From Oligoflexia bacterium (GTDB taxonomy: Bacteria; Bdellovibrionota; Bdellovibrionia; JABDDW01), in the NCBI GenBank assembly GCA_034439615.1, contig JAWXAT010000028.1, positions 1 to 62,704 of the forward strand: a stretch of 62,704 bases of DNA. The letters run 5' to 3'. Each line of letters begins with the position of its first letter. The first letter of the stretch is position 1. The translations under genes and the position numbers were made by a program. This document shows, in pieces, positions 49,037 to 62,704 of the stretch. The notes under the pieces were generated by a model. It searched no databases and was not told the origin of the DNA. It was given only the letters and a program-made list of their open reading frames with translations.

Positions 49037-50665
49037 ATGAAGTATCTCGTATTCGTGGTAAGTGTTGGTTTCGCATTTGGTTGCAGTGATGCAAGACTTG
49101 CCAAACAAATTCAAGCCGCATCAGTTAAAAGTGAGGGCTATTTTTGTACTCAAGCGCCACAAATTAGTAATGGCATAACAAAATTCATGTTCGTCATTGA
49201 TAAATCAGGTAGTAACGTGGACACAGACCCCGGCAATGCAAAACGCGCTGATAACATCGAACGTTTTTTTAACAGCCCCGCTAGTAGTCCGAGACGTGAT
49301 AATCCTAATATTGCCTGGGGCTACATTGCCTTTGCTGGTAGTTCAGCCACTGCATTTATTAATGACGGCAATGATCAAAATCCTACATTTGTTGGAGTAC
49401 CAAATAACATTGCGGCTATGAATAATGCTTTGGCACTTCAACGTGGCCCTGACAACGACCTAACACCTTATCGTGCTGCAATTGCATTAACTAAAAAAGC
49501 CATCATCAATGACCAAGCACTTCACCCAAATGAAACTCATAACTATGTTGTATTTTTCGTTTCTGACGGTCGACCAACTGATTATGGAGCTGAAGGCCCT
49601 GCAGGGGCTGATGCTTTTAGCGATGTTGATGATCTCGTGAATACGATTCCGGGAAAAATAACTTTCAGCACTGCCTATTATGGTGCTTTTGACCCGGCAA
49701 CTGCCGATGGTTTAAAACAAATGGCAGAACATGGACACGGTAAATTCGTTGATACCAATGCAATGCCTGATTTTGAAATCGATGATTTGCTCAATAATGC
49801 AGGTGCGCACGCAGACACCTATCAGGTGAATAAGATTTTAGTCTACAATCTAAACAGTGCAGTTTGTTTAGATAAAAAAAGAATTTCACTTGATTCAGAT
49901 GCCGATGGTTTATGTGATGATGACGAAACCTATACAACAAAAACAGATCCACAAAATCGCTTTTCAAAAGGTGACGGGTACGGAGATTATTTCCATTATA
50001 TTTCCAAAGTAACTGGAGGGTCTTTACCTGTTTGTTATGATCGCACTGATGAAGACTTTGATCTTCTAACAGCATGTGAAGAGCTCTACATGTATAATGA
50101 GCATCCCACTGGAACAAAATTAAACCGAGCTGATGCGAAAAATCCTGATACTGATTTCGATTGGTTTATCGATGGTATTGAGTATCTTATGCTTAAAAAT
50201 CGTTCATCAGCACTTGATATGTTTAATGTTTTTAAAAGCTATGATGGTGAACCCGTGAATGCGGGTGAGCAAATCACCCAACATCGTAATCCCTTATTTT
50301 ATGATTACAATATGGCACCAACAGAGATGTACGACACACGTATTGAGTTTGATAAATATAATGATCAGGGTCAAAGTTGTTATCGATTTAAACAAGATAA
50401 TCTTAAATTATTTCACACTAAGTCTGTTAGTGCACAAAACTCACTAGGGCCTTTGTATGCGCATAAAGAGTGGGATAATACAGTACTAATTTATTACATT
50501 CAAAGTCTTGAAAAAGACCCTACAGGTGCTGGTTATTATGCGTACAGCGTTCAAACTTTGAGTGGAAACCCTGGTACAATAAAACGATTGGGCCGTGACA
50601 GTGGGCTTCAAGTACGTGATGGTACTTTTACACTTTATCAAATACCGGAGCCAGCAAAGCCATGA
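49037..50665 (+). CDS. VWA-domain lipoprotein, CglB-like
   Basis: It encodes 542 residues. The lipobox ends at Cys16 (GFAFGC). A von Willebrand A domain (about 48-265) has the MIDAS motif D55-x-S57-x-S59. It is followed by an Asp-rich calcium-binding stretch (LDSDADGLCDDDE, then DTDFDWFIDG) like thrombospondin type 3. In Myxococcus, CglB is an outer-membrane VWA lipoprotein adhesin of the gliding machinery, and the motor genes nearby support the same role here; homology to CglB itself is inferred from domains and context. GGGGGT precedes the ATG. Its stop overlaps the next start (ATGA). Confidence 0.8.
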   Translation: MKYLVFVVSVGFAFGCSDARLAKQIQAASVKSEGYFCTQAPQISNGITKFMFVIDKSGSNVDTDPGNAKRADNIERFFNSPASSPRRDNPNIAWGYIAFAGSSATAFINDGNDQNPTFVGVPNNIAAMNNALALQRGPDNDLTPYRAAIALTKKAIINDQALHPNETHNYVVFFVSDGRPTDYGAEGPAGADAFSDVDDLVNTIPGKITFSTAYYGAFDPATADGLKQMAEHGHGKFVDTNAMPDFEIDDLLNNAGAHADTYQVNKILVYNLNSAVCLDKKRISLDSDADGLCDDDETYTTKTDPQNRFSKGDGYGDYFHYISKVTGGSLPVCYDRTDEDFDLLTACEELYMYNEHPTGTKLNRADAKNPDTDFDWFIDGIEYLMLKNRSSALDMFNVFKSYDGEPVNAGEQITQHRNPLFYDYNMAPTEMYDTRIEFDKYNDQGQSCYRFKQDNLKLFHTKSVSAQNSLGPLYAHKEWDNTVLIYYIQSLEKDPTGAGYYAYSVQTLSGNPGTIKRLGRDSGLQVRDGTFTLYQIPEPAKP

Positions 50666-50841
50666 AGACCAGCAAAACCATGAAGACCAGCAAAGCCATG
50701 AAGACCAGCAAAACCATGAAGACCAGCAAAACCATGAAGACCAGCAAAGCCATGAAGACCAGCAAAACCATGAAGACCAGCAAAGCCATGAAGACCAGCA
50801 AAACCATGAAGACCAGCAAAGCTATGAAGGTCAACAAAACA
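50650..50841 (+). repeat. 18-bp tandem repeat encoding MKTSK(T/A)
   Basis: The unit is ATGAAGACCAGCAAARCC, with R being A or G. Nine near-perfect copies and one diverged copy run from 50662, with a partial unit before it that forms the last codons of the VWA gene. Each unit has an in-frame ATG for the downstream gene and a TGA for the upstream frame. No frame has a stop inside the array in the downstream frame. Confidence 0.95.
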
Positions 50842-51171
50842 TTTTTGTCTTACAATTCTGTTAAAAAAGCCCTCATATCAGGTGTTAGATTTCTCAAAAC
50901 ATTAGGAATGTCCCAGAGCAAGTTTATTGGCAAGACTGTGTTCGTGCTCTTGATCTTGTTTATTCTACCGTTGGAATCAGCTCATGCACAAACAAAGGCT
51001 CGACTTGATCTAGATGATATGATGATCAAAGGCGAGCTGCATAACGATGATCGCCTCATGATTCTTGCTCGTCAAAAAAATGAAATGAAAAATTTTATAA
51101 AATTTCGCACAAGTTTTCGAGAAGAAATGCTTCAAGAACTACCTGTACCTAAAGCCCGCCGTCGCTATTAG
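50662..51171 (+). CDS. Small exported protein with repeat-encoded N-terminus, possible GltF/CglF type
   Basis: If translated from 50662, it has 169 residues: ten 6-residue repeats, then a linker, then a signal peptide (KTVFVLLILFILPLESAHAQ) and a 51-residue mature part. That part contains LDDMMIKGELHNDD and a C-terminal FRTSFREEMLQEL, a pattern that I associate with small proteins beside deltaproteobacterial gliding genes. Initiation could be at any of ten repeated ATGs or at 50908 just before the signal peptide. The ATGA overlap with the VWA gene suggests translational coupling. Confidence 0.6.
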   Translation: MKTSKTMKTSKAMKTSKTMKTSKTMKTSKAMKTSKTMKTSKAMKTSKTMKTSKAMKVNKTFLSYNSVKKALISGVRFLKTLGMSQSKFIGKTVFVLLILFILPLESAHAQTKARLDLDDMMIKGELHNDDRLMILARQKNEMKNFIKFRTSFREEMLQELPVPKARRRY

Positions 51172-51175
51172 AGCC

Positions 51176-51192
51176 TGTCTAAACTTTAGACA
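51176..51192. promoter_or_regulatory. 17-bp inverted repeat TGTCTAAA-C-TTTAGACA
   Basis: A perfect 8-bp inverted repeat with a one-base centre lies just after the small exported gene. No T-run follows, so a terminator is unlikely. TTTAGACA also occurs in the leader of the TolQ-type gene. Confidence 0.45.
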
Positions 51193-51335
51193 CCTGATTT
51201 TACTCTAAGCACAGAGATGTGGTGAGTGTAATTGTACTGCCTTATGCGTGGTCTAGATTTCGCAATTTGAATCTACAGAACATACTCAAACATACGAATG
51301 CCAGTACGCCTGAATTTGATTGAAGTGGGAGTTAT

Positions 51336-52421
51336 ATGAAAACCGATGTTGTTACTTTGATAGAACTACCAAAATTTAGAAAATATGCATGGTTAAGATC
51401 GGGTACCGCATTATTAAGGTCAGGCGTATTGTCAAAATCTCTGAGCACATTAAAAGTTTTCAGTATGTTTTGTGTTCTGACAATATCAGTCAATAGCCTG
51501 GCAATGAATGACGAAACCAAAACAATTGCAGATTTAGTAGATGATACTCCCACATACTCTATTGAACGCGTTCGGGCACTTATGAATTTGCGTACTACTT
51601 TAGCGTCAGAAGGTGTTGCTCCGAATAAAATCGCGGCATTTATAAAAGAAGTTGAAATTGGCCTTGATACAAAAAATACTTCTCCCAACATGAACAGCTC
51701 ATTAAGACAAAACATCCCATTAGAAAAAATAGCAAATGCTCAAAAGTCATTAAATGGGGCAAGCTTTTATAAAAAATATATAAGCCGAGATCACACTTTG
51801 ATGGGTAAAATGCAAGAACTTGTTAGACAAGCAAGAAGTTCCTCGATCAAACCTCTTGCCGCAGCAGCTGTTGCAACTGGCGTCATTGCTGGAGGCTTAT
51901 ACTATGTGAAAGATTATTTAACTCCCGAGGGGCGACGTTTAATTGCTGAAAAAAAGCGCCTTGAAGCAAAATTGAAATCAGAAGAACTTAATCGTAGAAT
52001 GCCTGGAAATTTAGAAAAATTCAAAAATTCAGATGTTGCAAAATTGGCCAACGTGCTTCTTGCTACACAGGATTACGATTATTTCGTAAGCCAGTTCTTT
52101 TCAAGTCCAACATCTGTAGCAAAGATCAAACAAACTCTTTTCGACAAGTATCCCTATGACGACCTTTGTAATTTAGACGCTCGTTTTGTCATTGAAGATC
52201 TTTTTCTCTGGGATGCTGATCTAACAGTGAGTAACAGAATCACCGTTCAGCCAAACTCATTGGCAAGAAAACGTTATAAAGAATTAGCAGCTCAAAATTT
52301 TGTAATTAGTGAATGTAAATTGGCGAAAAATTATTTTATCAAGTCATCTGACACTACAACCGACATAATTACTGCCAAAACATCTGCTACTGGTACTGCC
52401 TCCAGCTCACGAGCAAATTAG
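51336..52421 (+). CDS. Membrane-anchored/exported protein, unknown function
   Basis: It encodes 361 residues. The N-terminus has a long basic stretch and a hydrophobic segment (FSMFCVLTISVNSLA) consistent with a signal peptide. A second hydrophobic segment (KPLAAAAVATGVIAGGLYYV) lies near the middle. The C-terminal half is charged and helical with two Cys. Good GGGAG RBS. I recognise no family. The last codons (SSSRAN) are partly duplicated about 120 bases further on. Confidence 0.65.
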   Translation: MKTDVVTLIELPKFRKYAWLRSGTALLRSGVLSKSLSTLKVFSMFCVLTISVNSLAMNDETKTIADLVDDTPTYSIERVRALMNLRTTLASEGVAPNKIAAFIKEVEIGLDTKNTSPNMNSSLRQNIPLEKIANAQKSLNGASFYKKYISRDHTLMGKMQELVRQARSSSIKPLAAAAVATGVIAGGLYYVKDYLTPEGRRLIAEKKRLEAKLKSEELNRRMPGNLEKFKNSDVAKLANVLLATQDYDYFVSQFFSSPTSVAKIKQTLFDKYPYDDLCNLDARFVIEDLFLWDADLTVSNRITVQPNSLARKRYKELAAQNFVISECKLAKNYFIKSSDTTTDIITAKTSATGTASSSRAN

Positions 52422-52539
52422 AGAACACAGGGAATGGCAGAGAACACAGGGAACCTTCTGGGGTACAGCAAGCTCGCTGAATAACGCCAGAGTACGCCAC
52501 GTTTAGTTTCCGGTTTCCCCCACAGCTTACGAGCAAATT
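52403..52539. repeat. Imperfect copies: gene 3' end and a 15-base doublet
   Basis: CAGCTCACGAGCAAATT at 52403-52419 recurs as CAGCTTACGAGCAAATT at 52523-52539 (16/17). Between them AGAGAACACAGGGAA is repeated at 52420-52434 and 52439-52453. The first copy codes for the end of the preceding gene. Confidence 0.75.
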
Positions 52540-52542
52540 GTG

Positions 52543-52665
52543 ATACTGCAACGATTTGATTACCCTTCAATTACATGATTTCTATACTGCAACGATTTGA
52601 TTACCCTTCAATTACATGATTTCTATACTGCAACGATTTGATTACCCTTCAATTACATGATTTCT
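52543..52665. repeat. Three perfect 41-bp tandem repeats
   Basis: The unit starts ATACTGCAACGATTTGATTA and ends ATGATTTCT; copies begin at 52543, 52584 and 52625. All three are identical and there are no spacers. They lie in the 422-base gap between the unknown exported gene and the transposase-like gene; the remainder of that gap shows no ORF. Confidence 0.95.
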
Positions 52666-52843
52666 ACAATTCACATAATATGACATTGCCCCACTGTTTT
52701 TATTGATTTCCGTAAAAATTCTAATAGTATGCGAACAACTCGAAAGGGGTAATTCAGGGTCGTGTTATCCAAGGTTGATTAAAGGTCGTATAATTCATAG
52801 ATCAAGATACATATTGTAAATATTTGAGGCGAAATAACAATTT

Positions 52844-53434
52844 ATGAAGAAAATCTTGAAGCAACTCACATTTGAAAAAACTAAAACTTTTGCTGATTTT
52901 AATGACAGGGTAGAACATGGAGGGTCTACACGTATTGGCAAACGTAAACTTTATCGGCCGTTTAATTCAAAAAAAGCAATTCATCTTGTTTTAAGATCGA
53001 CAAAGGCTCATGGTCAGTGGTCGATGCTCAAGAAACGTAACGAAAATACAATTTCACGACTCATATATTCTTCAGCAGCGAAGAATATGATTAACATTCA
53101 TAAATTTGCAAATTCTGGCAACCATTTGCACGTTTTACTTAAGGCCCCATCTAAGAAAGCGTTTCAAAAATTTCTAAGAACCATAACAGGGCTTATTGCT
53201 AGACATGTGATGAATGCTCGCAGAGGCTATGCAAAAGGAAAATTTTGGAATTCACTCGCATATACAAAAATGATTCTAAGCATGCACCAATTTAAGAATA
53301 CGGCGAACTACATCTGGAAAAACGCATTGGAAGGGTGGGGAATCATTCCACCGCGATCACAGGCATTAGGTCGCGTTAAAATTAATTTTTTAATCGATGA
53401 TTGGTTGCAACAAAATCGAATTTACGATGGCTAA
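52844..53434 (+). CDS. REP-associated tyrosine transposase-like protein (IS200/Y1 HUH family)
   Basis: It encodes 196 residues. The HUH motif is HLH at residues 94-96 (SGNHLHVLLK), and Tyr156 in NTANYIWKN is the likely nucleophile. The N-terminal KAIHLVLRSTK and the FKNTANYIWKNALEGW block are typical of RAYT/Y1_Tnp proteins that cut single-stranded DNA. No matching terminal REP palindromes were identified, so mobility is not shown; it may be domesticated. It lies within a cluster of short duplications. Confidence 0.82.
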   Translation: MKKILKQLTFEKTKTFADFNDRVEHGGSTRIGKRKLYRPFNSKKAIHLVLRSTKAHGQWSMLKKRNENTISRLIYSSAAKNMINIHKFANSGNHLHVLLKAPSKKAFQKFLRTITGLIARHVMNARRGYAKGKFWNSLAYTKMILSMHQFKNTANYIWKNALEGWGIIPPRSQALGRVKINFLIDDWLQQNRIYDG

Positions 53435-53776
53435 CGCAGCTGAAGTGGTGAGAAAGAATGAAGACAGAGGAAGTTGAAAAAAAGAAGGGACCGCAGGAAG
53501 ATGAAAGAGGTGAGAAAGAATGAAGGCAGAGAAGAAAAGGCCGAGAACTGAAGGGATGAGAAAGAGAGGCAAGTAGTAGTAAAAAAGAAGCCAAGCCAAA
53601 TCAGATCAGTTCAGATCAGATCGAAGAATAAGAAAACCGGGGGAGGATTAGCTCGAAGAATACGAAAGAAAAAGTAGAAGAAAGAAGGGGAATTCACAAT
53701 CAATCGATTTGAACTTCGTATAGTGGGAGTGTAAGTTCTGCGCGCGTAAAACGCAGTACCGGGGGAGGATCAGCCT
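53435..53776. other. Purine-rich intergenic region with internal repeats
   Basis: From about 53440 to 53700 the plus strand is mostly A and G. Two copies of GTGAGAAAGAATGAAG (near 53448 and 53512) and two of CCGGGGGAGGAT (near 53637 and 53759) occur. It ends with a fragment copied from the FHA gene. No credible ORF: the minus-strand frames are low-complexity Ser/Leu/Phe. Confidence 0.6.
53721..53759 (+). repeat. Inverted 39-bp copy of an FHA-gene fragment
   Basis: The 39 bases TAGTGGGAGTGTAAGTTCTG... ending ACGCAGTAC match the complement of 55748-55786, inside the minus-strand FHA/AgmX-type gene, at 38 of 39 positions. The two copies are in opposite orientation and bracket the TolQ-TolR-TolR operon. 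Confidence 0.92.
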
Positions 53777-54349
53777 TTAATTCGTTGATTCAGGTGTTAG
53801 AGGGCTTCCTGCTCCGTCTGCATTGACGGCGAAGTTGATTCCGACCCAACCTTCGCTGATACAGGTTTGCATGACTCGCTTTATGTAAACGAGTGGGGTG
53901 CTTTCATCTGCTTGAATGTTTACACTGCCAGAAAATGGTTGGCCGGGATGAATTGTTTCTTCGATAATTCGAATCTGTTTTAAGGCGTTGGCTAGTTTTG
54001 GTAAATTTTGATCTTTTTCTTCAAGATAGATTGGGTTGTCTCCCACTTTTTCAGTTTCTAAAATTACGCTAGATGCGGTTATCGTAATGAGCGGAGCACT
54101 TTGCAATGGCTTTCCGTAGTTCGCTTGAGGAATCTTGAGATTTTTTTGGATATAAAATACTTCACCCGTTGCAGAAAAATTCATTAATAAAAAAATTACT
54201 AAGACTGTAAACATATCGATCATGCTGGTCAAGGGAAGATCAGCTACGACATTGGCTTTATGATTGGTATTTCGCCTCTCACGTAATTCGTGAAGATCGT
54301 ACTTCGGACGCAAATGATAACCCGGTTTGATGATGAGCTTTTTTTGCAC
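53777..54349 (-). CDS. ExbD/TolR-family motor subunit
   Basis: It encodes 190 residues. One membrane helix near the N-terminus contains the proton-binding Asp (LTSMIDMFTVLVIFLL), and the rest is periplasmic. With the TolQ-type protein and the second TolR-type protein it makes a proton-driven motor; in Myxococcus the equivalent trio is AglRQS. The GTG start lies 50 bases after the preceding gene, in a 38-bp duplication region with only a weak RBS. Confidence 0.88.
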   Translation of the reverse strand: MQKKLIIKPGYHLRPKYDLHELRERRNTNHKANVVADLPLTSMIDMFTVLVIFLLMNFSATGEVFYIQKNLKIPQANYGKPLQSAPLITITASSVILETEKVGDNPIYLEEKDQNLPKLANALKQIRIIEETIHPGQPFSGSVNIQADESTPLVYIKRVMQTCISEGWVGINFAVNADGAGSPLTPESTN

Positions 54350-54352
54350 TCT

Positions 54353-54428
54353 AACACAGCCTTAGTTCGTATTAATTGAAACTTCTCTAAAACACGGCCT
54401 TAGTTCGTATTAATTGAAACTTCTCCAA
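54353..54428. repeat. 38-bp tandem duplication covering a tolR stop codon
   Basis: Positions 54353-54390 and 54391-54428 match at 36 of 38. The second copy holds the last codons and stop of the upstream tolR-type gene; the first is a spare copy in the gap before the next start. Confidence 0.92.
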
Positions 54429-54852
54429 ATAGCTCACTGGTCATGGTGTCCATTAAATGGATCAAATGTTTATAGGGGGCTTGACTATCAGTATTTAAAA
54501 CCAAATCAGATCGGTTGGGATATTTTAGTTTCCACTCAGCAAGTTTTTTCTTAAGTGCTTCGTAATCTGGATTGCCAGTATTGTGTGGGATTTTTACGTT
54601 TGCCGATCCTTCACCAATAAGAAGATGATCTAAAAAGAGCGAAACACTGAGATCGACTTTTTTATCAGGCAAAGCAGTATTGTTCACATTATCTGTTGGG
54701 GCTGAGCCTTGAGTTGAAAGTACTGCAATTTGTTGCCAAACGGCAGTTATCAATAAAAAACAAATCAACGTTGAAAATAAGTCAATAAATGGAACTAAAT
54801 TTAAATCAGCGCTAACACCCTTTTTTCCACCGCCAAGACCACCTGCACTCAT
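54400..54852 (-). CDS. ExbD/TolR-family motor subunit
   Basis: It encodes 150 residues. The membrane helix DLNLVPFIDLFSTLICFLLI carries the conserved Asp near residue 23. The periplasmic domain ends in LMDTMTSELFGEVSIN. It begins seven bases after the TolQ-type gene. Two TolR-type proteins with one TolQ-type protein is the arrangement of AglRQS, not of plain Tol-Pal or Exb. Confidence 0.9.
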   Translation of the reverse strand: MSAGGLGGGKKGVSADLNLVPFIDLFSTLICFLLITAVWQQIAVLSTQGSAPTDNVNNTALPDKKVDLSVSLFLDHLLIGEGSANVKIPHNTGNPDYEALKKKLAEWKLKYPNRSDLVLNTDSQAPYKHLIHLMDTMTSELFGEVSINTN

Positions 54853-54858
54853 CTAGAA

Positions 54859-55506
54859 TTATCTCCTTGTGAATTTATCTCTGTTGGCCAAGATAAAATT
54901 CAAGGTAGCCACTGCGGCCTCATGAATATCATCAACAAGATCTTGAGCTTTTGACTGTAGATATCCGTAAATACCTAAAAGTGGAATAGCTACGATGAGT
55001 CCGAACGCTGTACAATTCATTGCTTCAGCGATTGCTTTTGCAAGCAAGCCGGCCTTTTCACTTGGACTCACATTAGCTACAGCACCAAAGGCGCCGATAA
55101 GACCAACGATGGTTCCGAGTAACCCGATTAAGGTGGAAAGATTTGAAAACATAGCTAACAAACTTGTTCGTTTTTCAATTCGAGGAATTTCACGAAGAGC
55201 CACAGCATCCATGGCTGTTTGAACTTCTTCAGCATCTTTATTACTTGCTACAGCCATCAAACCTGCTTTTACAATTTTTGTAATTGGACTCGATGCTTGA
55301 GAGCAAACGGCAATGGCGCGCTCGAGATTACCCTGTAAAATAAATTGATTGATACGGTTTAAAAAATCATCTTTTTTAACTGTACCAGCTCCGGTGAGAT
55401 ACATGAATCTTTCAATCGTGACAGCAAGTCCAATGAGTGAAACTCCTAAGATCGGCCACATGAAAAATCCACCGTGATGAAACGCTTCTGCTGCTGAACT
55501 TAACAT
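54859..55506 (-). CDS. MotA/TolQ/ExbB-family motor subunit
   Basis: It encodes 215 residues with three membrane helices. The conserved stretch LIGLLGTIVGLIGAFGAV and the AMNCTAFGLIVAIPLLGIYGYL helix are family hallmarks. It forms the ion channel with the two TolR-type proteins. The 117-base leader upstream contains TTTAGAC motifs and may hold its own promoter; it is otherwise coupled to the FHA gene. AglR is the suggested Myxococcus counterpart. Confidence 0.93.
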   Translation of the reverse strand: MLSSAAEAFHHGGFFMWPILGVSLIGLAVTIERFMYLTGAGTVKKDDFLNRINQFILQGNLERAIAVCSQASSPITKIVKAGLMAVASNKDAEEVQTAMDAVALREIPRIEKRTSLLAMFSNLSTLIGLLGTIVGLIGAFGAVANVSPSEKAGLLAKAIAEAMNCTAFGLIVAIPLLGIYGYLQSKAQDLVDDIHEAAVATLNFILANRDKFTRR

Positions 55507-55567
55507 TGTGCCTGCCCCCTTGGCTCATCGATGTGTGAACGATTTAATATTACAAAAAAAGTCTGGA

Positions 55568-55593
55568 TTTAGACAAAGGACTTTAGACTAAAG
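55568..55593. promoter_or_regulatory. TTTAGACA motif and palindrome in the TolQ-gene leader
   Basis: TTTAGACA (55568-55575) is followed by CTTTAGACTAAAG (55581-55593), a 6-1-6 inverted repeat. They resemble the inverted repeat at 51176-51192. The role is unknown. Confidence 0.35.
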
Positions 55594-55623
55594 TGCAAAA
55601 ACTAGACTTAAGTGATTGTAATC

Positions 55624-57741
55624 TTAGAGTCGCCCGAAGGGAAAACCGATGACTGGAGTTGTCGTTTGACCATTTTTAGCTGATGGGAATTTCATACTTG
55701 TGAATACCCCTTTTACACATTCAGCAAGTGCGTCGCCTTGGTTGACAGTACTGCGTTTTACGCGCACAGAACTTACACTCCCACTAGATGAAATATCCCA
55801 TTCAAATTCCATACGCCCTGCAAGGTTTGGATCCATCAGTAGGCTTCGCTCATAACAATGCTGAACTTCGGTGAGATATTTATTAACTACTGCTAATACT
55901 TGGGCACGAGTTAGTCCTTCATATTTTGCATTTTGTGCAAGCTTTGGTTCGCCCACAACAACACCGGCCACACTGCGTGCACCAGCTTTGCCTTTAAGAC
56001 CTTGCACGCCATAACCTTCACCACTACCCACACCGAAGCCTTTTGTTTTCACTGAGCCACCACCCGTAGGTATATTGCCGTGAGTAGAAGGAAGTGTGCC
56101 TGCAAAATTACTTGTATTAACTTTTGTAGGGCCGCCAGCATTTTGATTGATATTAATATTAGCAGGCACTCGCACTTGAGGCGCGTTTGATATTGCACCA
56201 AGCGCTGCTAGCGCACCAAGGGATTCAACTTTTACAGGAGGTGGTTCAGGTGGAGGCGGTTTATTGACCTTGATTGGATACTTATTCGTATTAGCCATAA
56301 CTTTCGGAAGTGGTATTTGTTTTTGAGGAACCTTCACTACAACTTTTTTTGGTTCAGGAATTAAAATGGGTTTAGGTTTTGGTTCCACTTTTTTAACTAT
56401 TTTTTTAGGCTCAGGTTTTTTCTTAGCAATTTCTTTTTTTGGTGGGGGAGTCGGTTTTGGTTTTTCCGGTTTCGGCGTTGGCGTTGGCTTTGGTTTTTCA
56501 ACCAATAATCTTGCAAAACGTTCAGGTACATTTTTTAGTTTTGGAGCAGGTAGCTGTGGAGGATTCGCAAATATGAGCATGGCAACCAATGCGGCATGTA
56601 GAATACCGGAAGTAACAACAGCTTGTTTTACCGCAGTTTCAGCATCAGAGATCCTTTTTGCTACCAGTGGCGTTGATGCTGGTACAAAACGCAGATGAAC
56701 TTTGAGCCCATGTCCGAAATCTACATGTACGATTTCATGATTCGCAGCTCTTAATGTATTTCCAAAACCCGTTGCGCGCAGCTGCCCCGTACTAACAAGA
56801 TCACCCATGGCAATGGCCTCATGACCTCTATTGAGTGAAACATTGATTCCTTGGGGGATAGTAAATTGAATGAAATCATTGGCTACACGGGCGAGCGGCC
56901 ATGGTTCGCGTAAAAGTGGAAGTGGTAAATTACTTTGTGTAGCAGGCCCTACAATAATTGTTTCGCCTACATCAAATTCCTTCACATCATAAACTAAATC
57001 ATGCCAAATAATAACAGCTTCAACACTTCGTACACGCGCTTGAGACAAACCGCTGTGGTACTCAGTTAAGTCAGGTAAAAAATCTCTGGTTGAAACAGGC
57101 GCGAACATCCCCGTTAAAATAGATGGATCTTCTGGAGGGATGATAGGCTTGTGATTATTTTGAATGCCAACCAATGGAACAACACCACGGCCACCCACAC
57201 TCATCGAGGCACTATTTATTCTCGGCTCTAATTGAATTGATTTCGGACGGGTCATGGGGGCATTAAGCTTAGGTGATTGTGGTACTGAAATTGGTTTTTC
57301 TTCTGATAGTCTTTCGGTTTGCAAAAGTTTACTGGCATCAAATGCCTTATTGAAATCTAGTTTTTTTTCAGTCAACAAAGTCGCAACAGTATCAACACTT
57401 TTTTCATGCAGTTCCAGCCCTGTTGATGGCAACACTTCAACTGTTATACGAAGACTTGCGATTTCAAAAGCGAAATCATTTTTGAAATCGTGGCGTTCAA
57501 CTTTCTGACTATCAACCCTGATGCCGTTGCTACTTTTAAGATCAAGAACATACCACTCACCATTTTCTTCAGAAATAGAACAGTGAACACGTGACATAAA
57601 ACTGAATTCAAGGGGAACTTGAAGTGTTTTACTTCGCCCGAAACTAATTGGATATTGCGTAAATACTTGTTCAAATATTTTCTCAGTATTGTTGTGAACA
57701 ATTACGCGCAATGATCTTGATAAATTTTTAAGAATCGACAA
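55624..57741 (-). CDS. FHA-domain protein with AgmX/PglI C-terminal domain, GltG/GltJ-like
   Basis: It encodes 705 residues. Residues 1-105 form an FHA domain with GR at 35-36, S50-R51-x-H53 and N72-G73. A second beta-rich segment lies at 245-330, then one membrane helix around 380-400, a Pro/Lys-rich linker (about 405-510) long enough to span the periplasm, and a C-terminal TonB-like domain starting VNKYLTEVQHCYERSL. This architecture matches GltG of the Myxococcus gliding complex. The TTG start has AGGAG upstream. A 39-bp stretch near the 3' end has an inverted copy outside the gene. Confidence 0.88.
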   Translation of the reverse strand: MSILKNLSRSLRVIVHNNTEKIFEQVFTQYPISFGRSKTLQVPLEFSFMSRVHCSISEENGEWYVLDLKSSNGIRVDSQKVERHDFKNDFAFEIASLRITVEVLPSTGLELHEKSVDTVATLLTEKKLDFNKAFDASKLLQTERLSEEKPISVPQSPKLNAPMTRPKSIQLEPRINSASMSVGGRGVVPLVGIQNNHKPIIPPEDPSILTGMFAPVSTRDFLPDLTEYHSGLSQARVRSVEAVIIWHDLVYDVKEFDVGETIIVGPATQSNLPLPLLREPWPLARVANDFIQFTIPQGINVSLNRGHEAIAMGDLVSTGQLRATGFGNTLRAANHEIVHVDFGHGLKVHLRFVPASTPLVAKRISDAETAVKQAVVTSGILHAALVAMLIFANPPQLPAPKLKNVPERFARLLVEKPKPTPTPKPEKPKPTPPPKKEIAKKKPEPKKIVKKVEPKPKPILIPEPKKVVVKVPQKQIPLPKVMANTNKYPIKVNKPPPPEPPPVKVESLGALAALGAISNAPQVRVPANININQNAGGPTKVNTSNFAGTLPSTHGNIPTGGGSVKTKGFGVGSGEGYGVQGLKGKAGARSVAGVVVGEPKLAQNAKYEGLTRAQVLAVVNKYLTEVQHCYERSLLMDPNLAGRMEFEWDISSSGSVSSVRVKRSTVNQGDALAECVKGVFTSMKFPSAKNGQTTTPVIGFPFGRL

Positions 57742-57800: not shown

Positions 57801-60800
57801 TTACAGAGAAAGTGCACTTATCCAGGGATGCAAAGTTCCAGACGGACGTCCAGATGCTTTTGCCTTATTTAAATAACTCTGCAGTTTAGTCTTAAAGCCA
57901 AATTGTTGATACATTCCAGCTAGACCATAGAGGGCTAAGGCTGAGCGTGAATTGTGCTGCAAAGCTTGCTTGAATGCAGCTTGAGCTGATTCAAGATCGT
58001 TCATAAACAAAAAGGTCTGGCCTAATTGGGCTTCTGCAGGTGCATAATTAGGTTGAATCTCAAGCGCACGACTCAATATAACTCTTGCCATGGCGTAATC
58101 ACGAACACGCATATAAGCTTCTGCTAACTGCATCAAAAGTTTTACGTCACGAGGTGTATCAAAAAGTTTGCGCCTGATTCCGGCGGCCTCTGGTGGAGTT
58201 GAATCACTTGCTTTGGCCAGAATTTTTTCTTCCACAGATTCATCTACCATCTCGAGTCCTTGGCTTTGACATCCTTTTACAAAACCTGTGAATACTTCAG
58301 ATTTTTCAGCGTTTTGTGTACAAGAACTAAAGTAGTTCTTTGCTTTTTGAATATATGTATTCGATTGCTGAGCAATAAGTTGTTTGTACTGTGTTTTCTG
58401 ACCGTCATTAAGACCAGCAGGAACAGCGGCTCCTTTGATGAATTCTGAAAATTCGAGATTGGCTCTACCTAATTGATAAAGTGCTGCAATTGTCCAACGA
58501 CCATTGCCGAATTTAATTACTTGGTTGAATTGATTAATAAGTTGTGTGAGTTTCGCATTTTTTAATTGAACAAGCTTAGCTTCGTCTTGCCCTGTACCGA
58601 GCCTCATTGCTTGATAATCTTTTAAAGCTTGCGTTGAAAGTAGATAAAGCGAATGAGCTGCCATTTTCTTTTCTTCAAAATTAGAACCAGCCATACCTGA
58701 AGCTTTTGCTAAATAGGGTTTGCTTTGTTCAAATTGTCCTTGGCGATAAAGCGATAATCCTAACCAATAAGTACTTTCAATATTGCCCATAGATTTTGAA
58801 GTTAAAGTCTGTGCTGCTTCGCTCCAAGATTGTGATGATATCTGCTGCTTAGCTACAGCACTAAAGTTATTAAGATCGCGGTAATCTTCTGCAGCCTCTT
58901 TGTAATCACCCATAAGTTCACGCATCGAAGCAGCGTTTTTGAGTAATGACGGCCCAGCTTTATCTTTACGATACTTTCTAGCAAAAGTTTCAAAATATTT
59001 CGCTGCTCGTTTATAATCCGCGGTATTTAAAGCCATTTGACCCATATCACCAACGACTTGCTGCGCGTAACGTGAATCTCCATGTCTTACAAGAAGTTGC
59101 TCGCCAATTTCATAAGCTTGTGTGTCTTTTTTTGCTTTCAAAGAAACAAAAGCTTCATAGAGTGCTTGGTCGCCCAAGCTTGAACCTTTGTACTTCTCAG
59201 CAAAGCCTAAGAGTTTTTTTGCATAATCACGGCTTTTCGGATCACCAGCTGCGCTCTCAATTTTTCGATATTCGGCTTGTTTGATGATATCTGATACGTC
59301 TGCCTTAAACTGTTTATTCGTAATACGCGGATTAGCAACTAATGCTTTTCCGGCTTTAATCATACCTTCGAAGTCTTCTCTTTGATTGTATGAATCTAAA
59401 ATTAAATTTCCAGCAGTCGTCGCCTCTTTGTGATTTGGATAAGCATTGATAAATGAAGTGAAATTCTTAACAGCCCGGTCAAAGAGCCTTTCATCATAAT
59501 ATGTTCTTCCAATGTTAAACATTACCATCGCACTTGCTTTATCACTTGGATAACTCTTTAAGAAAATTTTACCTGTTGCACGAAAGCCATTTCGAGCTTC
59601 AATAAGTTCTAATTTAGAGAGCTTTTCAGGTTCTTTGAGTGCGAACGCAAAACTTTGTATCGCTGAATCCAAAACTTCTTTTTTAGATTGAGCTTTTGGT
59701 TGAGACGTGATTTTTTCATAAAAATAACCAGCACGTGAATACTTTTTAAGAGAAAAATAACTTTCTGCCAAATTAAGCATGAGCGCGTCTGAGTACTTTG
59801 AATTTGGAAATAAAGTTAAGTAATTTTGATACCCATCAATTGCTGCGAGATAATCTTTTTCTTGTTTAGTAAGCTTAGCTGTCTTCTGAAGACGAGTGGT
59901 AATATCACGCAAATAAATTTCAAAATTTTTCTCAATCTTAGTTTTTTCAGCCTGCTTTAAGTCTGTTGAACCTCTTGCTCGAATGAGGGTAATGGTTATT
60001 TCATCGGGCATCATGTCTAGAGGCCAAGATCTTTTAGATTTTCTCAAAACTTCATAAAATCTATCTACGAGCTCAATTCTGAGTTCTAAATCATTTGTAA
60101 TATCAAAGAGTCTAAAAAAGAGTGGGAAGGTTTCTTCAACTTTATTCTTTAATAAAAATCGCTTAATGAGTTTATCCAATACCTTGGCCAATGCTGGCCT
60201 GTTGGGCGCAAGTCGTTCAAAATATTCTAAAGCGTTGGCGCGCCCTGCTTCATGTTGTTTTTCTTCAGAATAGGGCCAAACAAGTGCCAGCAAAGCATCT
60301 CTACGCACATCGCTTTTTTTATAAACGTCCGGAAGTAAATCTGAAGAAATCTTTCCATCAATGATGATCACACCTTCGAAAGCGAGGAGGGCGTCTTTGA
60401 ACCTCTCCATATTGATATAACACCAGCCAGTTTTGTAGCGCGCCAAAGGCATAAATGGATTTTGTGCGCGCCCTAATATTTTTTGATAAACATCTAAAGC
60501 CAATCGAGGGTCTTTTTTCTGTTCTAAAAAATAATCGCCTAAAATGAGTTGTGATTCTTCCCAATACTGAGATTTAGGATACTCCGTTGTTAGTCGTATA
60601 TATGTCTTCACCATATCTTCGACATTGCCCATTTCTGTATACTCGTGAGCCATGTAAAACAATGCTTTGTCTAATATGTCGCTTTTAGGGAACGTCTCTA
60701 AGATACGCTGATAAACTTCAATAGCTTGTTTTTTTGTTTTCTTGCTGTCAGAAAAATCAAGCTCATTAACAGGAGCTCCCGGATTTTCTTGTCGTGTGAT

Positions 60801-61028
60801 TGTGACTTGGTATCGACTTTTTTCGACGTATAATTCAGCTAATACAAAATAAAGTTCAGGCAAGAAGGTAACATCTTTAACAACACGCATTTTGCCACGA
60901 GTGACTTCAATTGATTTATCAATCTTAATCAAATCAGATTTAAGTTCAGAAAGACTCTTTTTCTCTTGAGCAATGGACTCTAATGAAACAAAAACCAAAA
61001 GAATTACGATAAACGATCTTAACTTCAT
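57801..61028 (-). CDS. Large exported TPR protein, GltD/AgmU-like
   Basis: It encodes 1075 residues with a signal peptide (FIVILLVFVSLESIAQ). It is almost wholly TPR-like helical repeats, e.g. AIEVYQRILETFPKSDILDKALFYMAHEY near 125-155 and the well-formed ARVILSRALEIQPNYAPAEAQLGQ near 1000-1030. Large periplasmic TPR proteins next to FHA/TolQR genes are typical of the Glt complex; whether it equals GltD or another TPR member cannot be fixed here. It overlaps the next upstream gene by four bases. Confidence 0.8.
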   Translation of the reverse strand: MKLRSFIVILLVFVSLESIAQEKKSLSELKSDLIKIDKSIEVTRGKMRVVKDVTFLPELYFVLAELYVEKSRYQVTITRQENPGAPVNELDFSDSKKTKKQAIEVYQRILETFPKSDILDKALFYMAHEYTEMGNVEDMVKTYIRLTTEYPKSQYWEESQLILGDYFLEQKKDPRLALDVYQKILGRAQNPFMPLARYKTGWCYINMERFKDALLAFEGVIIIDGKISSDLLPDVYKKSDVRRDALLALVWPYSEEKQHEAGRANALEYFERLAPNRPALAKVLDKLIKRFLLKNKVEETFPLFFRLFDITNDLELRIELVDRFYEVLRKSKRSWPLDMMPDEITITLIRARGSTDLKQAEKTKIEKNFEIYLRDITTRLQKTAKLTKQEKDYLAAIDGYQNYLTLFPNSKYSDALMLNLAESYFSLKKYSRAGYFYEKITSQPKAQSKKEVLDSAIQSFAFALKEPEKLSKLELIEARNGFRATGKIFLKSYPSDKASAMVMFNIGRTYYDERLFDRAVKNFTSFINAYPNHKEATTAGNLILDSYNQREDFEGMIKAGKALVANPRITNKQFKADVSDIIKQAEYRKIESAAGDPKSRDYAKKLLGFAEKYKGSSLGDQALYEAFVSLKAKKDTQAYEIGEQLLVRHGDSRYAQQVVGDMGQMALNTADYKRAAKYFETFARKYRKDKAGPSLLKNAASMRELMGDYKEAAEDYRDLNNFSAVAKQQISSQSWSEAAQTLTSKSMGNIESTYWLGLSLYRQGQFEQSKPYLAKASGMAGSNFEEKKMAAHSLYLLSTQALKDYQAMRLGTGQDEAKLVQLKNAKLTQLINQFNQVIKFGNGRWTIAALYQLGRANLEFSEFIKGAAVPAGLNDGQKTQYKQLIAQQSNTYIQKAKNYFSSCTQNAEKSEVFTGFVKGCQSQGLEMVDESVEEKILAKASDSTPPEAAGIRRKLFDTPRDVKLLMQLAEAYMRVRDYAMARVILSRALEIQPNYAPAEAQLGQTFLFMNDLESAQAAFKQALQHNSRSALALYGLAGMYQQFGFKTKLQSYLNKAKASGRPSGTLHPWISALSL

Positions 61029-62461
61029 TTATCGTCTCCTGATTGTGAGCATCGAGACTCGATAAAAACTTTATAATCTTCTAATTCATCGAGCCAAAAT
61101 TCGCCTGTGCCTGTCCAGTAGATTTTTTCAAAACTAAGATGTGGTATTTCTTCTGGACTGTATTTTAACTCTGAACCTCCTCGGTTAATGCGTAAACTAT
61201 CAAGTCGGGTTTGATAATCGAGAAAATTAAGTTGTTCTTGCCAATCTATTAACTGCTCTGCTGTTTCTCGTGTTTTATCTTGTAAAATCCAATCTAATCT
61301 TTCGTTTACTTCTTTGATTTTGGCTTCATAGCGTTTTTTAACGATTGGATAAAAAAAGTAATCCTCCCAACCAGTGTCATTGAGATTAGCGTATTCAGCT
61401 TTCAAAGAATTTAAGAGATTAACCCATTTTTGAATGCGTTGATCGAGAACAGAAATATTAATAATCATCTGATCTTTTCTGAGATCTTTTCTTTTGTTGA
61501 TTGCGGTCATCGAAGCTTGAAAGCGTTGCTTGAATTCTTTCATTACTTCATAAACTGAATCAAAGTAACAAAGCTCTTTATACATAATCATCTTTAAAAT
61601 GTAAGGCTCTGGAGTGCGCGAAGTATCAAAAATGGGAGCTTCAAGTGCAGCTAAAAGACCAAGTGCTTTTGAATAATCTTTTTCATAATACTTAGCCCAA
61701 GCTCTTTCAATTAGAATAAGCCCTTTTTCTCGAGGATTAAGTTTTACATTCTTAAACAGTGTATAGGCTTTAGCGTGGTCACCTTTTTCAAAAATGAGAC
61801 GCGCCCATTGATGTCCAGCTGCTGACTTGATGTCTTCAGGGGCTGCTTGATTGTTAGCAATTCCAGAGAAACGCTCAATTGCTGAATCAATACGATCGCG
61901 TGCGACTTCACCAAGAGCTGTAAGGTATTTAATTTTGAAATCCCAGTAAGAATCCAAAGTAATTTTTTTAAAGTTTTCTTCGCCCCATTTTGTGAAACCT
62001 CTTAGCATATTGAACATCCCTTGCTCAAAATTCACAAAATCTTGTGTTGCAGGAGGTAACAGGGCATGTTCAATATCAACAACGATTTCACCAATCAATG
62101 AATCTTCATCTACGGGGAATTTTCTAACCGCTTCTTCAACGCCAGACATTGCCAACGCCGCCACTTCAGTGCCTATTTTAGCTTTGATGACCTCGGATTG
62201 AATTCCGGTGGCAGCAAAATTAAATCCCTTTTTTTGCAATGCCATAGCGATCGCTACTTTAGCTTCTGCATTCTCTAATGAATCTTTTTTTGTTGCACGA
62301 TATTGGTCAATGGCAATTTCAATCATATTCTCATAATTTAAATCTTTAAGAGAACTTTCGATTTCTTTCCAGAACTCTGGATTTACAGGTTTGTAAACGG
62401 GTAGTTGCCCTTGGCAAGTTAAGCTAATAAAGAAAATAAAAAGAAAGATTTTAATCTTCAA
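61025..62461 (-). CDS. Exported TPR protein, GltC/GltE-like
   Basis: It encodes 478 residues from TTG 62461, chosen because AGGAGG lies six bases upstream and a signal segment (MKIKIFLFIFFISLTCQGQ) follows; a Cys in that segment might be lipidated, though the lipobox is poor. TPR-like repeats span residues 80-330, and the C-terminus (IYWTGTGEFWLDELEDYKVF) resembles GltC/GltE-type proteins. It overlaps the end of the upstream beta-barrel gene by 11 bases. Confidence 0.75.
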   Translation of the reverse strand: MKIKIFLFIFFISLTCQGQLPVYKPVNPEFWKEIESSLKDLNYENMIEIAIDQYRATKKDSLENAEAKVAIAMALQKKGFNFAATGIQSEVIKAKIGTEVAALAMSGVEEAVRKFPVDEDSLIGEIVVDIEHALLPPATQDFVNFEQGMFNMLRGFTKWGEENFKKITLDSYWDFKIKYLTALGEVARDRIDSAIERFSGIANNQAAPEDIKSAAGHQWARLIFEKGDHAKAYTLFKNVKLNPREKGLILIERAWAKYYEKDYSKALGLLAALEAPIFDTSRTPEPYILKMIMYKELCYFDSVYEVMKEFKQRFQASMTAINKRKDLRKDQMIINISVLDQRIQKWVNLLNSLKAEYANLNDTGWEDYFFYPIVKKRYEAKIKEVNERLDWILQDKTRETAEQLIDWQEQLNFLDYQTRLDSLRINRGGSELKYSPEEIPHLSFEKIYWTGTGEFWLDELEDYKVFIESRCSQSGDDK

Positions 62462-62704
62462 ACTCTTCCTCCTGATTATTTTCTTCATTCTTAGAACCGA
62501 AAATGTAGGCAAGCCCTACAACGAGTGCGAGATTGTTTCTCGTGCTAGAAAGATAGATGTAATTTCTAAAATCAAATTTTAGGGCAAATGAATCACTGAT
62601 GAAATAACGCATGATGAGGCCTACGTCGATACATGTTTTTGAGCCGGATGAGAATTGAGCCACGCCCGCACCAGCAACAAAAGATACTTCGGAGTGAATG
62701 ATAG
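62451..62704 (-). CDS. Outer-membrane beta-barrel protein, C-terminal part (cut by the window edge)
   Basis: The frame is open to the right edge, so this is a partial gene. Visible are 83 residues with alternating beta strands, e.g. HSEVSFVAGAGVAQFS, DVGLIMRYFISDSFALKFDFR and LALVVGLAYIFG, ending in an acidic tail. The pattern matches the myxobacterial-type OMP family found as GltA, GltB and GltH in gliding loci. It is the first visible gene of the minus-strand motility operon. Confidence 0.75.
   Translation of the reverse strand, partial: IIHSEVSFVAGAGVAQFSSGSKTCIDVGLIMRYFISDSFALKFDFRNYIYLSSTRNNLALVVGLAYIFGSKNEENNQEEEFED

Follow-up and report, generated by a model that had tools for sequence, protein, structure and literature searches.

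A 39-bp inverted repeat encloses three genes of a predicted motor operon in the 62,704-nucleotide stretch of DNA analysed here (the window), which comes from a Bdellovibrio-like bacterium. How did such an arrangement arise, and does it serve the organism as a switch? A preliminary description of the sequence had offered two readings, an invertible phase switch for motility and a scar of template switching. The second is the better supported: one of the two arms is embedded in a patchwork of local duplications that is specific to this lineage, and we consider it probable that this arm is an inverted templated insertion that arose by polymerase template switching.

The motor operon

The operon is located on the minus strand and its genes encode, in order, a GltC-like protein, a TPR protein, a GltG-like FHA protein, a TolQ-like protein and two TolR-like proteins.

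61025–62512, minus strand: GltC-like gene (NF033756, E 5.2e-14, below cut-off)
57801–61028, minus strand: TPR-protein gene (profile match), kept beside the FHA gene in relatives
55624–57741, minus strand: GltG-like gene, with an FHA domain (PF00498), a proline-rich linker and an AgmX/PglI C-terminal domain
54859–55506, minus strand: TolQ/ExbB/MotA-like proton channel gene, AglR-like (PF01618)
54400–54852, minus strand: TolR/ExbD-like gene 1 (PF02472)
53777–54349, minus strand: TolR/ExbD-like gene 2, AglS/AglQ-like (PF02472)

Its profile matches assign the operon to the Myxococcus Agl-Glt type (GltC/TPR/GltG/TolQ/TolR/TolR), with a predicted function in this organism. As in the Myxococcus motor (AglRQS with GltC and GltG), an FHA protein with a GltG-type C-terminal domain, a TolQ-like protein, two TolR-like proteins, a TPR protein and a GltC-like protein are encoded in one operon. 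The GltG-like protein matches both PF00498 and, at residues 611–695, the AgmX/PglI model NF033768 above cut-off. Over their full length, however, the GltG and GltC models score below their curated cut-offs (for GltG, NF033760, E is 2.5e-27 and the score 95.7 bits against an equivalog cut-off of 650 bits), which is why we use the names GltG-like and GltC-like. Past the stop codon of the first TolR gene, a 38-bp tandem duplication (54353–54428) provides a second copy of the gene's 3' end.

An inverted repeat with two copies in the genome

The two arms of the repeat are as follows.

53721–53759, plus strand: non-coding arm N, 17 bp past the stop codon of the second TolR gene, the presumed derived copy
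55748–55786, minus strand: coding arm F, codons ~652–665 (SSGSVSSVRVKRST) of the GltG-like FHA protein, the presumed source copy

These are inverted copies identical at 38 of 39 positions, with a separation of 2.03 kb (2,027 bp centre to centre). Comparison of the window against itself recovers them (E = 4e-12) exactly where the preliminary description had placed them, one in non-coding DNA and the other within the FHA gene. It had also said that they bracket TolQ-TolR-TolR, and this is correct; outside the arms lie the GltC-like gene, the TPR gene and the greater part of the FHA gene. Arm F lies inside the NF033768 domain, near its middle. The sole difference between the arms reads GTG/GCG in the coding phase, and since relatives carry both valine and alanine at this position, the mismatch could have originated in either arm.

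Searched against the whole 3.0-Mb genome, the arm sequence turns up only at these two places. Background rates were taken from 703 kb (23% of the genome), comprising the window and 32 other stretches. Apart from the two arms, this sample has a single exact inverted pair (20 nt or longer, within 10 kb), the hairpin of a REP-like element, and no pair of that length whose members are kilobases apart. The remaining distant repeats in the sample are direct, or are members of dispersed families. With only two genomic copies and no comparable pair in 703 kb, the inverted repeat is not a product of chance and stands out as unusual in this genome. No match to the arms was found in viral contigs. An assembly artefact is unlikely, as each arm is embedded in unique sequence and one base distinguishes the two copies.

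Arm N lies in a lineage-specific insert

We compared the window with ten related loci, all from outside its genus; the genomes available for comparison included two of the same family. Scanning GTDB contigs yielded only two relatives, both distant. Most of the related loci found preserve the order FHA-TolQ-TolR-TolR, usually preceded by TPR, and wherever a relative has a complete operon its gene order is that of the window. In one locus (L046) ~6 kb separates FHA from TolQ, and in another (L049) the FHA end alone was recovered. The region of arm F can be aligned across all ten orthologous loci. The preliminary description had proposed looking for the non-coding copy in related strains; arm N is absent from all ten loci, each from outside the genus, and none of the ten has a distant inverted pair of comparable strength.

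The site next to the second TolR gene (TolR2) differs between these lineages. In L043 an unrelated gene of 382 amino acids abuts the TolR2 stop codon, and in L063 the end of a gene homologous to window gene 50662–51171 lies directly against TolR2. In the window that gene sits 2.6 kb from TolR2, and the gap is occupied by an orphan gene (51336–52421), a 41-bp tandem repeat in three copies, a Y1 transposase gene and a spacer. Arm N is thus located within a lineage-specific insert. The Y1 transposase-like gene is absent from the related loci. Features of the insert are listed below.

52543–52666, plus strand: tandem repeat of three perfect 41-bp copies, upstream of the Y1 transposase gene
52844–53434, plus strand: Y1 (IS200/REP-type) transposase-like gene (PF01797, E 1.9e-7; NF047646 and NF033573 below cut-off)
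53435–53776: spacer that separates the Y1 transposase gene from TolR2, a patchwork of short local duplications
53443–53469 and 53505–53531, plus strand: 27-nt direct repeat pair in a purine-rich tract
53636–53652, plus strand: copy 1 of a 17-nt direct repeat, ACCGGGGGAGGATTAGC, from a search for local duplications
53758–53774, plus strand: copy 2 of this repeat, ACCGGGGGAGGATCAGC, sharing 'AC' with the 3' end of arm N

Several other features of the contig are recorded here in their own right. The gap between the operon and a convergent conserved pair of genes (window 51172–53776; L043 3910–5975) contains lineage-specific genes that vary between relatives, as at an insertion hot spot. An 18-bp minisatellite of ~10.6 copies (50651–50840) covers the end of gene 49037–50665 and the start of ORF 50662–51171. 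Relatives have a shorter protein with a signal peptide (L043 3658–3909), so the true start of the window ORF is probably farther downstream. At the contig end, positions 2–167 consist of ~28 copies of the hexanucleotide CCAACA.

A patchwork spacer and a probable template switch

The spacer that carries arm N contains four local duplication pairs, where dinucleotide shuffles predict 0.03. One of these pairs (ACCGGGGGAGGATYAGC, starting at 53636 and 53758) adjoins the 3' end of arm N, with which it shares the 2 nt 'AC'; so short an overlap is weak evidence. The purine fraction of 53450–53689 is 0.81, the top value for any 240-bp segment in the 703-kb sample (the next is 0.73). The 60-nt flanks of the arms align no better than shuffled sequences on both sides (125 of 500 and 203 of 500 shuffles reach the observed score), and the copied piece therefore has abrupt ends.

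We infer that arm N was copied from arm F by a template switch. Arm F is likely to be the source because the C-terminal domain that it encodes is conserved across the ten orthologous loci, and arm N would be the copy because it lies in the lineage-specific insert. In the proposed mechanism, the convergent spacer downstream of the operon would be undergoing replication or repair when the nascent strand switched template to the GltG-like gene ~2 kb away. About 39 nt of that gene would be copied in the opposite orientation before the strand switched back, probably at the 'AC' shared with the flanking direct repeat. The 240-bp purine-rich tract may stall replication forks. Taken together, the spacer duplications, the purine tract and the abrupt arm ends look like the outcome of several template switches at one place.

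Events of this kind are on record. Repeated template switching with inversions has been described in E. coli (PMC3161906); the fork dimension given there, ~1.5 kb, is close to the 2.0-kb arm separation, and we count this in favour of template switching. The locus resembles template-switch or MMBIR-type templated insertions (PMC3161906, PMC7954356, PMC8794818) in its short, abruptly ending inverted copy of a nearby sequence and in its cluster of local duplications, and the apparently derived copy is at a lineage-specific site. In contrast to the short-range events that are usually catalogued, the source here is farther away, at ~2 kb. The 703-kb sample contains no comparable inverted pair elsewhere and so offers no wider tendency of this genome in support of the reading.

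Arm N is most likely without function. Inversion between short repeats may happen at low rates without an invertase, and the arm pair leaves the locus with a small, passive probability of inverting.

Possible pairing within the operon mRNA

The arms are oriented such that the 3' region of an operon mRNA could pair with the gltG-like coding arm over 39 bp and loop out tolQRR, which might guide RNase III cleavage or provide feedback through a small RNA from the 3' end. We regard such a role as very unlikely. The predicted duplex has 39 contiguous pairs and an energy of -77 kcal/mol, and the single mismatch is of the type that keeps a G-U pair; however, that outcome has roughly a one-in-three chance, and it is an assumption that the transcript reaches arm N. 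There is no terminator-like site at the 3' end, a search of Rfam gave no match, and the pairing is not conserved, the arm being absent from relatives. Duplex energies over 300-nt stretches in relatives are uninformative, as summed long interactions swamp one 39-bp helix.

RNAs derived from operon 3' ends and 3' UTRs are known to give feedback autoregulation (PMC7398697). Arm N is similar to the autoregulatory RNAs OppZ and CarZ in that a 3'-end sequence shows complementarity to a gene located upstream in the operon. Unlike those RNAs, it would pair with a coding region along 39 bp without a break, and this pairing is predicted and not conserved. It is very doubtful that such a duplex, by looping out tolQRR, sets the ratio of the GltG-like transducer to the motor proteins, which would make it a regulatory structure born in one template-switch step.

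The adjacent transposase

The Y1/REP-type transposase gene ends 286 bp from arm N, so the enzyme could have moved a single-stranded fragment to this site, or the arm could itself be a REP-like element. Y1 transposases are a family that moves single-stranded elements and are not the usual DNA invertases. Arm N can fold a short CTGCG/CGCAG hairpin; however, this hairpin is no stabler than those in shuffled sequences, and we rejected a hairpin or terminator function for the arm as not significant. REP elements are short, palindromic and multicopy, whereas the arm sequence has two copies, one of them in a conserved coding region. The REP-like family that accompanies another Y1 gene (L069) also has no match to arm N. 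Either origin thus appears decidedly improbable.

Elsewhere in the genome, the REP-like GCACGGCCTTACTT element is present at L069 1094–1146 and 1874–1926 and at L054 5252–5283 and 15601–15680, and on contig C49 a weak Y1 transposase-like match lies between inverted copies of it. A dispersed element of 68 bp with internal palindromes (GGCAATTTGACAACTTTTTGTCAAATT...) is found at L056 11173–11240 and 16252–16319 and has ~5 matches in the 703-kb sample.

A proposed invertible switch

Recombination between the arms would flip tolQ-tolR-tolR, swap the tail of the GltG-like protein and could turn the motor on or off. The arm length of 39 nt, at 38/39 identity, falls within the 10–40 nt range of inverton repeats (PMC11892184). 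The flipped FHA product was predicted correctly in the preliminary description: the frame stays open across the junction and gives 686 rather than 705 amino acids, with the tail ...VKRSTGGGSAFNSLIQVLEGFLLRLH and the ending STGGGSAFNSLIQVLEGFLLRLH. The product also has one V-to-A change inside the arm.

Nevertheless, the proposal of a phase switch for motility is not supported, and we consider it very unlikely. Invertons often have a site-specific recombinase nearby (within ~5 kb), but no match to tyrosine (PF00589), serine (PF00239) or IS110-type (PF01548) recombinases is present on the contig. The recombinases that were found sit on other contigs, and none of the IS110 type was found genome-wide. 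The arms occur once as a pair in the genome. The flip would cut the conserved GltG-type C-terminal domain (residues 611–695) at residue 658, with a loss of about half of it, and would detach tolQRR from the upstream genes and put it on the opposite strand. Relatives with a complete operon share one order and the second arm is found in none of the ten loci from other genera, so the site is not conserved among them; the assembly itself shows only the present orientation. The locus is thus like invertons, including those with intragenic inversions, in having repeats of suitable length around a segment and one arm in a gene, and is unlike them in having neither a nearby invertase nor a conserved site, and in a flipped product short of about half a conserved domain.

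Finally, the match extends loosely to 45 nt (93% identity), as might be left by a larger inverted duplication or inversion that has since been mostly deleted or has diverged. We consider this highly improbable, since the 60-nt flanks align no better than shuffles around a core that is 97% identical.

Implications

A true switch would mean phase variation of a gliding-type motor, and the evidence points elsewhere. The locus cautions against taking an inverted repeat around an operon, on its own, for a switch. In a Bdellovibrio-like bacterium, arm N, as a probable scar of template switching, offers a clear candidate for an inverted templated insertion, with its source ~2 kb away.
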